Source: Spirosoma fluviale (GTDB taxonomy: Bacteria > Bacteroidota > Bacteroidia > Cytophagales > Spirosomataceae). Taken from it: 64,000 nt of DNA. Location: positions 1 through 64,000 of the forward strand of contig CAMCXW010000007.1 in NCBI GenBank assembly GCA_945883625.1, in the 5' to 3' direction. Below the pieces are notes generated by a model that made no database searches, was not told the DNA's origin, and was given only the letters and a program-made list of their open reading frames with translations. This document shows positions 36,403 through 39,629 of the stretch, one piece after another (within the stretch, counting starts at the first letter, position 1; every line of letters starts with the position of its first letter). Position numbers and translations under genes: made by a program.

Positions 36403-37656
36403 ATGACCCATTTATTTAGTGTACTGTCGGCGGAAGAAAAACTGCGAATCCAGAAAAGGGTTGCAGTTATGTTACAAGAGACCGAAGAAAAAGTCGCTGA
36501 ATTATTTCCGGTTTGGGAGGCAATTATTTTGGGAGGATTATTGAAATTGGTACGCAATCGCATACGATACAATGCATTGTATAATTTCATTTTACAAAAA
36601 CCAATCCCTATTGAATCGATAGAGGGGTATGTTGGCGATTCTGAAGCTAAGTTTGATTTAGATGAAATTATGCATTTTGGCGAAGGCATGATGAGTATTT
36701 TAATTCCAGATAAAAAAAGTGCGATTGCGATGTTGTTATCACGCGATCTTGGTTGCAAGAGTTCATCTGTACTAAAAGGGTTAACCTTATTTTTTGGATT
36801 ATATGGGTATAAATTGAAGCAAACAGATTATCCAGCACTAAAAGATTGGAAGGCATATAGCGCCTTCTTTTTGGCTAAGAAGTCGGATTTTAATGCGTTG
36901 TGTTCAGGTAAAATTCAATATGCGATATCAGATATTTTATTGCTTTCAGACATATTGAAGGTTGATCCCATGGTTGTATTGGCGTATTCGGATGAAAGTG
37001 AAACGCATGCAGATACTTCAACGGGTTTAATGCAGCGGATTACCTTACCCATGTTACTTTCAGTGGTTGCTGTCGTTTTAGTGGGCGCTTTCGCAATTTG
37101 GTATACGACATTTCGAAGTGATAATGATGCAGAAAATGTAACAGAAACGGAAGAAATTATTCCATTGGACAGTTTGAGTAAATTAAACGACAGTTTAACT
37201 CAGGCCGTTTTAGATTCGAATCGGTTAAAATCCGATTCTTTAATTACGTTAGTATGGCCAAGTGGTAAGCCATTCGATATATCTAAGTCGTCAGTACTTG
37301 TGTCCATACATCAGTATTTAATCGATTCAACTCAACTTGAATCTGCTGAATTCAGTTTGAAAGAATTGCAATTTGATAATCAAACTGATCTACTTTTAGC
37401 TTCTAATGACCTTGTTTTTAAGCGGTTAGCTGAAGGCTTATATGCGTTCAAAGATGTGCATGTGAAATTGGTGGTCAAATCAAGTAAAAATGAACGCTCG
37501 TCCCTTAAAAGAGGCTTTGTCTTGAAAAACCGATTGGTAGGTGAGGGGGTAGTTCCTGTACGAATCGAGGTCAAATCGGATGATCCTTCCGTTACTTTTT
37601 CGGATAGTGATTCCGACGTTTATATGGTGCTCACCAAAAAGCCTTTATTAAAATAG
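36403..37656 (+). CDS. Single-pass membrane protein with DUF937-like cytosolic region
   Basis: 417-residue protein I cannot name. The first 200 residues are cytosolic and helical with a stretch resembling DUF937 (GEGMMSILIPDKKSAIAML and LKGLTLFFGLYGYKL). One membrane helix lies at about 214-235 (LPMLLSVVAVVLVGAFAIW), and the following 180 residues are outside with acidic then Ser/Thr/Lys-rich sequence ending in a beta-rich part. No signal peptide, no enzyme motif. It may sense or anchor something at the envelope. It is divergent from hisB and precedes the helicase leader. Confidence 0.6.
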   Translation: MTHLFSVLSAEEKLRIQKRVAVMLQETEEKVAELFPVWEAIILGGLLKLVRNRIRYNALYNFILQKPIPIESIEGYVGDSEAKFDLDEIMHFGEGMMSILIPDKKSAIAMLLSRDLGCKSSSVLKGLTLFFGLYGYKLKQTDYPALKDWKAYSAFFLAKKSDFNALCSGKIQYAISDILLLSDILKVDPMVVLAYSDESETHADTSTGLMQRITLPMLLSVVAVVLVGAFAIWYTTFRSDNDAENVTETEEIIPLDSLSKLNDSLTQAVLDSNRLKSDSLITLVWPSGKPFDISKSSVLVSIHQYLIDSTQLESAEFSLKELQFDNQTDLLLASNDLVFKRLAEGLYAFKDVHVKLVVKSSKNERSSLKRGFVLKNRLVGEGVVPVRIEVKSDDPSVTFSDSDSDVYMVLTKKPLLK

Positions 37657-37665
37657 TGCAATTCA

Positions 37666-37697
37666 TTTGCTTTCTGTAGTAAGTATGCGTACTTTTG
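37666..37697 (+). promoter_or_regulatory. Promoter for the DEAD-box helicase
   Basis: TTTG (37666-37669), 20 bases, TACTTTTG (37690-37697): one of the best TTTG/TAnnTTTG matches in the window. Start near 37703, leaving an unusually long leader of about 123 bases. Confidence 0.65.
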
Positions 37698-37703
37698 TGG
37701 CTT

Positions 37704-37826
37704 ATTAGTACAAATGCATCCGCATAAATCGATTACAAGAGATTGTAAAACCCTGTCTTATATGACTAGAGGGCTATTAGGTTTAATTACGGATGTGTGA
37801 GGGCATCATAGTTAAACAAAAAAATC
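37704..37826 (+). promoter_or_regulatory. Structured 5' leader of the DEAD-box helicase mRNA
   Basis: The leader can fold into a closed multi-branched shape. P1: CATCCG (37717-37722) with CGGATG (37790-37795), extendable with G-U pairs. P2: TTACAA (37733-37738) / TTGTAA (37743-37748) capped by GAGA, a GNRA tetraloop. P3: CCCTGTC (37751-37757) with GAC (37764-37766) and AGGG (37770-37773), 3-base bulge. No ORF over a few codons inside. Function (cold-shock or protein control of helicase) is inference. Confidence 0.45.
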
Positions 37827-39629
37827 ATGAGTGAAAAAATTCGCTTTGATAGTCTTCCTTTGTCGGAAGGTATCCAAGAAGCAGTAAAAGAAATGGGGTT
37901 TGAATTCGCTTCTCCCATCCAATCAGAAGCTATACCCTTCGTTTTAGAAGGTCGCGATGTCATTGGACAAGCACAAACAGGTACGGGTAAAACCGCAGCC
38001 TTCGGTATTCCGATGATTGAGCACATTGTTCCTTTTGAAAAATTCGTACAAGCAATAATTTTATGTCCAACACGTGAGTTGGCTGTTCAAGTTTCTGAAG
38101 AAATGAAGAAATTGGCCAAATTCACAAAAGGTGTTTGGGTGACTACCGTTTATGGCGGTGATTCAATAGATCGTCAAATTAAATCGTTGAAGGCGGGTGC
38201 AAACATTGTTGTTGGTACTCCAGGTCGTGTGATTGACCTAATTGAGCGTCGTGCTTTGAAGTTGCAGCAAGCATCTATGATCGTTTTAGATGAGGCAGAC
38301 GAAATGTTAGATATGGGATTCCGCGAGGATATTGAAAGTATCTTGCAAGAAATGCCTAATGAGCGCCAAACTGTTTTATTCTCTGCGACGATGTCTAAGC
38401 CTATTTTGGCGTTAACTAGTCGTTATTTAACTGATCCTAAATTAGTTAAGGTCGTTAAGAATGAGATGACGAATGTGAACATCGAGCAATTGTATTTTGA
38501 TGTTAAGGGTCGCGCTAAAATGGAAGTAACAACCCGTTTGATTGATTTTTATGCGTTGAAATTGATGCTAATTTTTTGTAATCAAAAGAAACGTGTTGAT
38601 GAGGTTGTTGAGGAATTAGTCGCTCGTGGCTATTCTGCAGAAGGTTTGCATGGTGATTTACGTCAAAGCCAACGGACCCAAGTAATGAATCGTTTCCGTA
38701 ATGGAAATGTTAGTATTTTGGTTGCTACGGATGTAGCTGCGCGTGGTTTGGATGTTGATAATGTGGACGCTGTAATTAATTACGATATCCCATTAGATGA
38801 AGAATATTACGTACACCGTATTGGTCGTACAGGTCGTGCCGGAAAATTCGGTAAAGCATTTACCTTGGTAGTGGGTTCTGAGCGCAATCGTTTGCGTGAA
38901 ATTATGAATTTCACCAAAGTTAAAATTGACAAAGGAGTGATTCCATCATTCACTGATGTAGTAGGCATTAAAAAAGGCATGTTTATCGAACGTGTCGCTG
39001 CTACCATCAATGAGGGTGACTTGGAGGTATTTGCTGATTCATTGGAGAGTTTACAGCATGCAGGTTTTTCTACGGAGCAAATTGTTGCTGCCTTAGTTAA
39101 AATGAACATGGGTATCCAAAAGAATGAATTTGGTGATGAAAATCTAGAAGGCGAATTCGAACGTCAATCACGTAAGTTTGGTCGCGAGGAGCGTGGCGGA
39201 GGATTCCGTGATCGTGATTCGCGTGGTGGTGAACGTCGTGGTGGTGGTCGTTTTGATCGTGAATCACGTGGTGGTTATGGAGACCGTGGTGGAGATCGTG
39301 GCGGTCGTTTTGAAAGAGGTTCTGAACGCGGCAGTGGCCCACGTGGACCACGCGTTGACCGGGAAGGAAAACCTTACAAAACTGACGAAAATATGGTACG
39401 TATGTTCGTGAATATTGGCTTTAATGAGAAAATTTCCCCTTCCAATATCGTTGGCGCTTTTGCTGGCGAAACAGGAATTCCAGGAAATGTGTTAGGGCAA
39501 ATTCAAATTGAGAATAAGCATACCTACGTGGATGTTCCAAAAGAATATGCTAATCAGGTAATTGATAAAATGGTAGGCGCGCAGATTAAAGGAAAGCGTG
39601 TATTTGTTGAAATTGCTAAGCCAGTTTAA
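37827..39629 (+). CDS. DEAD-box ATP-dependent RNA helicase with RGG-rich tail and RNA-binding domain
   Basis: ATP-driven RNA unwinding, likely in ribosome assembly and cold growth; 600 aa, closest to DeaD/CsdA. Motifs in order: Q motif (SPIQSEAIP), I AQTGTGKT, Ia PTRELA, II DEAD, III SAT, IV-VI with RGLDVD and HRIGRTGRAGK. Residues about 445-520 are a low-complexity Arg/Gly segment with many RGG and RG repeats, and the last 75 residues form a DbpA-type RRM-like RNA-binding domain. The transcript has a long structured leader (37704-37826). It ends in a terminator. Confidence 0.93.
   Translation: MSEKIRFDSLPLSEGIQEAVKEMGFEFASPIQSEAIPFVLEGRDVIGQAQTGTGKTAAFGIPMIEHIVPFEKFVQAIILCPTRELAVQVSEEMKKLAKFTKGVWVTTVYGGDSIDRQIKSLKAGANIVVGTPGRVIDLIERRALKLQQASMIVLDEADEMLDMGFREDIESILQEMPNERQTVLFSATMSKPILALTSRYLTDPKLVKVVKNEMTNVNIEQLYFDVKGRAKMEVTTRLIDFYALKLMLIFCNQKKRVDEVVEELVARGYSAEGLHGDLRQSQRTQVMNRFRNGNVSILVATDVAARGLDVDNVDAVINYDIPLDEEYYVHRIGRTGRAGKFGKAFTLVVGSERNRLREIMNFTKVKIDKGVIPSFTDVVGIKKGMFIERVAATINEGDLEVFADSLESLQHAGFSTEQIVAALVKMNMGIQKNEFGDENLEGEFERQSRKFGREERGGGFRDRDSRGGERRGGGRFDRESRGGYGDRGGDRGGRFERGSERGSGPRGPRVDREGKPYKTDENMVRMFVNIGFNEKISPSNIVGAFAGETGIPGNVLGQIQIENKHTYVDVPKEYANQVIDKMVGAQIKGKRVFVEIAKPV

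Follow-up and report, generated by a model that had tools for sequence, protein, structure and literature searches.

A candidate bistable cis-regulatory leader of a DEAD-box RNA helicase mRNA in Spirosomataceae

In the 64,000-nucleotide stretch of DNA analysed here (the window), from an assembly named Spirosoma fluviale, in the Spirosomataceae of fresh water and soil, the gene of a DEAD-box RNA helicase follows an untranslated region that a first-pass annotation of the sequence had taken for a structured, riboswitch-like leader. The locus therefore raises the question of whether these bases are a conserved element acting on the helicase mRNA and, if they are, how such an element would work. 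The answer favoured here, at a probability of about 0.55, is that the leader is a new bistable cis-regulatory switch of deaD-type helicase mRNA, with the helicase itself as the likeliest trigger. A cis-regulatory switch is the best reading because the leader is conserved, covaries, belongs to one gene and has two competing folds. In what follows the genus of the window is treated as Aquirufa, and the labels Spirosoma (g24) and Runella-like (g23) were assigned to other groups from their likeness to named loci.

The helicase is a DEAD-box protein that carries a DeaD dimerisation domain and, at its C-terminus, a DbpA RNA-binding domain. The promoter that the first-pass annotation had placed at 37666-37697 is found there, with TTTG at 37666-37669 and TACTTTTG at 37690-37697 separated by a 20-base spacer, and it matches the Bacteroidota -33/-7 consensus TTTG/TANNTTTG (PMC6847099). 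As the -7 box and the transcription start are given as commonly 4-5 nt apart (PMC6847099), the 5' end is predicted at about 37702-37703; transcription would thus start at about 37702 and leave about 125 untranslated bases before the helicase start at 37827. For F. johnsoniae leaders a mean of 33 nt is given (PMC6847099). A scan for E. coli-type promoters was uninformative, this type of consensus not covering Bacteroidota promoters. The upstream neighbour (36403-37656) encodes a 417-aa protein with no Pfam or NCBIfam match; a protein like it precedes the leader in L135 (g29), and a different gene is found in that place in g35 (L136). The features of the locus are as follows.

37666-37697, plus strand: Bacteroidota-type promoter, TTTG-N20-TACTTTTG (from the sequence and the published consensus).
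37714-37722, plus strand: P1 5' strand, ATGCATCCG, pairing with 37790-37798 (individual folds, family table).
37725-37730, plus strand: P2 5' strand, TAAATC here and CTCTG in most loci of the family (folds, compensatory changes).
37733-37748, plus strand: P3, hairpin TTACAA-GAGA-TTGTAA (sequence, comparison among clades).
37751-37773, plus strand: P4, bulged hairpin CCCTGTC..GAC-TAG-AGGG, then CTATTA (folds, relatives).
37780-37785, plus strand: P2 3' strand, GGTTTA (folds, compensatory changes).
37781-37817, plus strand: hairpin T, GTTTAATTA-CG-GATGT-loop-GCATC-A-TAGTTAAAC, ending 9 nt before the start codon (folds, relatives).
37790-37798, plus strand: P1 3' strand, CGGATGTGT, common to hairpin T (folds).
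37827-39629, plus strand: DEAD-box RNA helicase, DeaD/CsdA-like, 600 aa (domain matches).

The helix CATCCG/CGGATG, the hairpin TTACAA-GAGA-TTGTAA and the bulged hairpin at 37751-37773 had all been drawn in the first-pass annotation and are all present; P2 and hairpin T (37781-37817), and with them the bistability, had been absent from it. Hairpin T and P1 are mutually exclusive, as the same strand is used by both. An AUG at 37793-37795 lies inside this shared strand (GGAUGU) and is kept in near relatives, its reading frame not being conserved. The best fold of the 123-nt leader stretch has hairpin T and is without the closing helix P1, and the best fold of the shorter stretch 37712-37816 has P1. 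When compared with shuffled sequences, the 123-nt stretch gave a z-score of -2.4 (3 of 200 shuffles fold as well), the shorter stretch was less striking (z -1.55, 17 of 200 as good), and the relative L003 was not striking (z -0.69, 43 of 200 as good). Eight Aquirufa sequences were folded, with z-scores from -0.7 to -2.9; P1 and P2 are common to their best folds, and P3 and P4 vary by clade.

The element precedes the helicase in all 33 of the Aquirufa leaders examined (26 distinct), and a covariance model gave a single strong match in each of 34 of the 38 Aquirufa genomes; three of the other four have no helicase match (E 1e-120), and in the fourth the helicase is represented by its later part alone. 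Eight genera of the family have the element according to models R1-R3 (g1, g29, g35, g37, g130, g134, g135 and g139), and it stands before the helicase wherever the downstream gene is readable; the contigs of G423 and G426 (g130) end too early to show the helicase motif, and in two of the eight g130 genomes the element was missed by the model and recognised by eye. This conservation, together with compensatory changes in P1, supports the proposal that a structured, cis-acting element precedes the helicase.

The three helices first drawn differ in how widely they are kept: P1 is general and P4 recurs in near relatives, where it is trailed by CTATYGGC or similar (CTATTA in the window), but the GNRA-capped P3 was seen only in the window's own Aquirufa clade, other loops or no P3 being found elsewhere. 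P3 with a GNRA loop was accordingly rejected as a general feature, since Aquirufa clades III and V and g29 are without it. In the window's clade (37733-37748; L003, L004, L005, L006, L115 and L144) the P3 tetraloop is GAGA, GCAA or GTGA, and variation only within the GNRA rule hints at a real GNRA loop in this clade.

Conservation of the AUG in GGAUGU also allows a reading in which it starts a short regulatory reading frame. It is present in 42 of 42 near-relative elements, for which GGATGT was itself a search condition, but the frame and peptide differ between clades and genera and the P1 3' strands of g32, g33 and g38 have no AUG, so that such a role for the AUG is hardly credible.

Covariation was examined in an alignment of P1 from 62 loci of the family, seven of the 69 scored loci being left out as the pairing did not fit. 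Double changes were seen at four P1 pairs (C-G/U-A/A-U, A-U/C-G, U-A/C-G and C-G/U-A) and occur in g30, g136, g32, g33, g38 and g34, two of them resting on a single locus each. In g35, g37 and g134 both partners of a U.G pair of P1 have been lost together. In the family table four of five P2 pairs are doubly changed, the fifth counting only with the window's own P2 (AAATC), where the register is doubtful, and L226 and L234 being poor; among near relatives, where the registers of P2 in g37 and in Aquirufa groups II and V were set by hand, double changes fall on four of seven pairs. In the outer stem of T, five double changes separate g37 from Aquirufa and a sixth (C-G to U-A) is found in g134. 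Conservation and covariation in relatives had been proposed as the check on the first-drawn helices, and P1 passes it, as do P2 and T. Shuffle tests on the near relatives, which offer few distinct rows, were modest, with pairing as good in 303 of 2000 shuffles for P1, 34 of 2000 for P2, 125 of 2000 for the outer and 2000 of 2000 for the inner part of T.

In most other genera a simpler core is found, consisting of a TAnnTTTG box followed by P1, P2 (mostly CTCTG/CAGAG) and P1'. In well-scoring loci of the family P1 starts 18-28 nt downstream of the box, counted from its first base, and the P2 loop measures 25-170 nt. A detector for this core, which was written, and its P2 words picked, after inspection of the data, scored 60 of 76 helicase loci at 6.4 or above (27 of 34 genera), with 69 loci giving any score. 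The window's leader scored 7.6; a single one of the 93 other boxes in the window reached 6.4, at 7.15, and so did 4.6% of 1380 leaders with shuffled 3' parts, these shuffles keeping single-base composition only. Nine of the 69 scored loci fell below 6.4 (L211, L212, L217, L218, L226, L229, L234, L236 and L243, the last by rounding only), and in L226 the detector chose a wrong pairing although the P1 strands are present. The detector gave nothing at seven loci: L225 (g137), L213 (g142), L216 (g23), L214 and L235 (g27), and L219 and L220 (g39). The Runella-like g23 keeps CTCTG after the box and has a different P1.

An exact pattern of one form of the element was run on 222 genomes and found a single place in each of 29 (four genomes were read on both strands), and in all 21 of these 29 genomes with helicase coordinates the place lies no more than 1 kb upstream of the helicase; the reversed control of this pattern gave no match. 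Among the helicase genes of many Dyadobacter (g26) genomes, a number of the matches contain one in-frame TAA within the alignment. A class-wide search of 395 genomes with R3 found nothing beyond chance level, and R3 also misses distant forms within the family: with filters it missed the Spirosoma and Dyadobacter forms that a later scan found. Four class-wide R3 matches (E 0.08-0.29, these model E-values being rough) came from genomes without a helicase match at 1e-140. Four matches with no helicase downstream, of R2 in G318 (L161) and G474 (L162) and of R3 in G525 and G529 (L180, L181), were set aside as chance; in G318 and G529 the core does precede the real helicase (L194, L192). Other Cytophagales families gave no match to the element. 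The helicase leaders of Hymenobacter (L067-L083) and Cyclobacteriaceae (L044-L090) can form long 5'-end structures after a TAnnTTTG box, with sequences that are conserved yet different from the element; in those of Cyclobacteriaceae, UUCCUUACU has as its pairing partner AGUAAGGAA, closer to the start. A GCATCCG/CGGATGT pair in L113 is unsupported.

Like an autoregulatory leader, the element lies 5' of one gene, is conserved, covaries and occurs in one copy per genome, copy number having been checked in Aquirufa and, for a single exact form, in 29 genomes. This distribution bears on the term riboswitch-like, of which the structured cis element is supported and the sensing of a ligand is not. 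In a metabolite or ion riboswitch, P2-P4 with CUAUYGGC would be the aptamer and P1/T the expression platform, and both the computed competition of the closing helix with a downstream hairpin in near relatives and a conserved unpaired stretch in Aquirufa and near relatives would fit. However, at the places checked the only gene to follow the element is this helicase, with one place per genome, no Rfam family matches it, and it lacks a conserved core, as CUAUYGGC is not kept in distant forms (by eye) and the P2 loop varies as described above; a riboswitch is thus very improbable.

The hairpin at the T place, with the 3' side folded alone, was compared with dinucleotide shuffles and gave a mean z of -2.0 over 68 loci, with 31 genus means averaging -2.2; for the 61 well-scored loci (27 genera) the mean was -2.1 and the average of genus means -2.4. 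In the local T-side folds of these 61 loci 62% of the P1 3' strand is paired on average. At this place Spirosoma (g24, mean z -0.5), g36 (+0.2), g131 (-0.6), g146 (-0.7), g31 (+0.7) and g23 (-0.3) have a hairpin that is weak or no more stable than expected by chance. Across the family T has no conserved sequence: in g30, g28 and g40 its 3' arm is a repeat of the P1 5' strand, in g32, g33 and g38 this arm is ACGG/CCGU, and the P2 3' strand and part of the P1 3' strand are taken up by the hairpin in Dyadobacter, g132, g141 and g145. Since T-place hairpins persist with differing sequences, the competition for pairing is retained in many genera as its letters are replaced.

Two alternatives in which switching plays no part can be weighed against these results. 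In the first, the DbpA domain, or a ribosomal or cold-shock protein, would recognise P1/P2, perhaps as an rRNA look-alike, and the bound protein would block translation or alter decay, T being a by-product. Most loci strongly conserve the P1/P2 sequence (CATCCG, CTCTG/CAGAG), which is in keeping with this direct binding, as are the DbpA domain of the helicase and the portion GAUGU..CGG..CAUCA of T (37792-37808, several genera), which we take to resemble the 23S rRNA segment near 2502-2514. Nevertheless, compensatory changes maintain T in near relatives, its stability exceeds chance in most genera, and clade I, g29, Spirosoma and Dyadobacter are without the rRNA-like loop, which makes direct binding as the whole explanation rather unlikely. 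In the second, P1 would protect the 5' end as an mRNA-stability or processing element. Its position, about 6-16 nt from the expected 5' end, would suit this, but the repeated re-creation of the competing hairpin and the energy balance would be left unexplained, and we consider it improbable. T was also considered as an intrinsic terminator and rejected, as by eye no U-run directly follows the stem; in Flectobacillus (g37) UUUU is found two or three bases after T.

In short leaders T ends 8-11 nt before the start codon, and in g35, g37, g130, g134, g135 and g139 it ends at least 100 bases before it; because of these six genera, start-site blocking is not general. The long leaders of g35, g37, g130, g135 and g139 (not g134) have a GAUGCC(C) stretch about 50-110 nt after T, often in a hairpin of its own (GCAUC..GAUGC) and complementary to the T 3' arm GGGCAUC (L136, L163-L167, L172-L179). 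Pairing of this stretch with the T 3' arm is a possible third alternative.

The balance of the two folds was computed for 14 sequences as ensemble energies, each state being obtained by blocking a few bases of one partner. At 37 degrees the P1 and T folds differ by no more than 3.2 kcal/mol in 13 of the 14; the exception is L004, in which T is favoured by 5.0 kcal/mol and the blocked 'P1 state' is without P1. Across 17 short leaders the region from -20 to -1 has a mean computed unpaired fraction of 0.85 in the P1 state versus 0.47 in the T state, and in Aquirufa the computed P1 fold leaves the start region open and T closes it. Translation in Bacteroidota depends on structure at the start region (PMC6847099), and because of this P1 would correspond to expression on and T to expression off in the short-leader genera.

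The first-pass annotation had pointed to long leaders of E. coli cold-shock and helicase mRNAs that serve temperature or self-control. When cooling from 37 to 10 degrees was computed, 12 of the 14 sequences moved towards T, by 0.1-2.8 kcal/mol, with no shift in one and the opposite direction in one. A thermometer or cold-shock element, in which temperature alone shifts the P1/T balance and helicase output, could draw on the near-equal fold energies, on this largely one-way movement and on the link of DEAD-box helicases to cold in other bacteria (PMC3485376). The shift is small, however, and goes towards the fold that closes the Aquirufa start region, the wrong way for cold induction, and a thermometer is distinctly unlikely.

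For the favoured reading of a switch with the helicase as trigger, the following course can be proposed. P1 would be made first, as RNA polymerase moves on, by pairing of the ACAUCCG-type 5' strand with the CGGAUGU-type strand, and would stack on P2 and enclose one or more hairpins. In the second fold the CGGAUGU strand would be pulled into the downstream hairpin T. In Aquirufa the P1 fold would keep the 20 bases before the start codon open, with expression on, and in the T fold about half of them would be paired, with expression off. With so little energy separating the folds, some factor has to decide between them, and autoregulation by the helicase is probably the likeliest trigger because of the gene on which the leader sits, the RNA-binding domain of the protein and the energy balance. 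By binding or remodelling its own leader the helicase would speed the exchange to T and so limit its own synthesis. It is possible, more tentatively, that the leader represents an RNA class that senses RNA-remodelling activity, in which the exchange of two near-equal folds would be catalysed by the encoded helicase and RNA-chaperone capacity held constant.

The suggestion of a possibly new RNA motif agrees with the absence of an Rfam family match. With Rfam 15 at the gathering threshold there were no matches in the whole window and none in 18 relative loci (three from other families); at E<=10 the segment 37500-38000 gave one lncRNA model (E 1.1, below its gathering score), and 14 loci gave none at E<=2.

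Several known systems are similar in part. In E. coli, csdA and cspA have long structured leaders before cold-linked genes, that of cspA with alternative folds. A long structured leader before a cold-linked type of gene is shared with them; in contrast, the present element has no Rfam match, belongs to another phylum and promoter type, and favours its closed fold on cooling. In translational riboswitches a closing helix competes with a downstream sequestering hairpin, and in both a strand near the start codon can join either of two pairings that exclude each other; the element differs in having one target gene at the places checked, a highly variable enclosed part and, in many genera, a distant start codon. 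Expression of the Synechocystis DEAD-box helicase gene crhR likewise depends on its own product, and on temperature, but in the accessible text the directness and mechanism are left open and no conserved bistable leader is described (PMC3485376). Ribosomal-protein autoregulatory leaders, as presented in the accessible text of PMC7247131, are similar in that one leader precedes the gene of an RNA-binding protein, whereas the target here is a helicase and binding is hypothesised. In H. pylori, RhpA-dependent feedback is described as acting on the rnj 5' region (PMC5874925).

The word helicase is absent from the main text of a 2010 survey (PMC2864571), and the accessible text of two genome-scale surveys has it in other contexts only, with no word beginning Bacteroid- or Cytophag- (PMC11109978, PMC8632094). 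In the open-licence literature nothing on this leader was found by title or the start of the abstract. A 2017 survey reportedly lists 224 candidate RNAs. Within Rfam and the open-licence papers searched, this may be the first helicase-linked RNA family in Bacteroidota.

How the level of RNA helicase is matched to demand in bacteria is poorly understood, and a compact leader with two competing, evolutionarily kept folds provides a concrete object to mutate. If the reading as a sensor of RNA remodelling is true, the leader would be a self-reporting substrate of the helicase, kept across much of the family despite repeated replacement of the letters in its competing hairpin.
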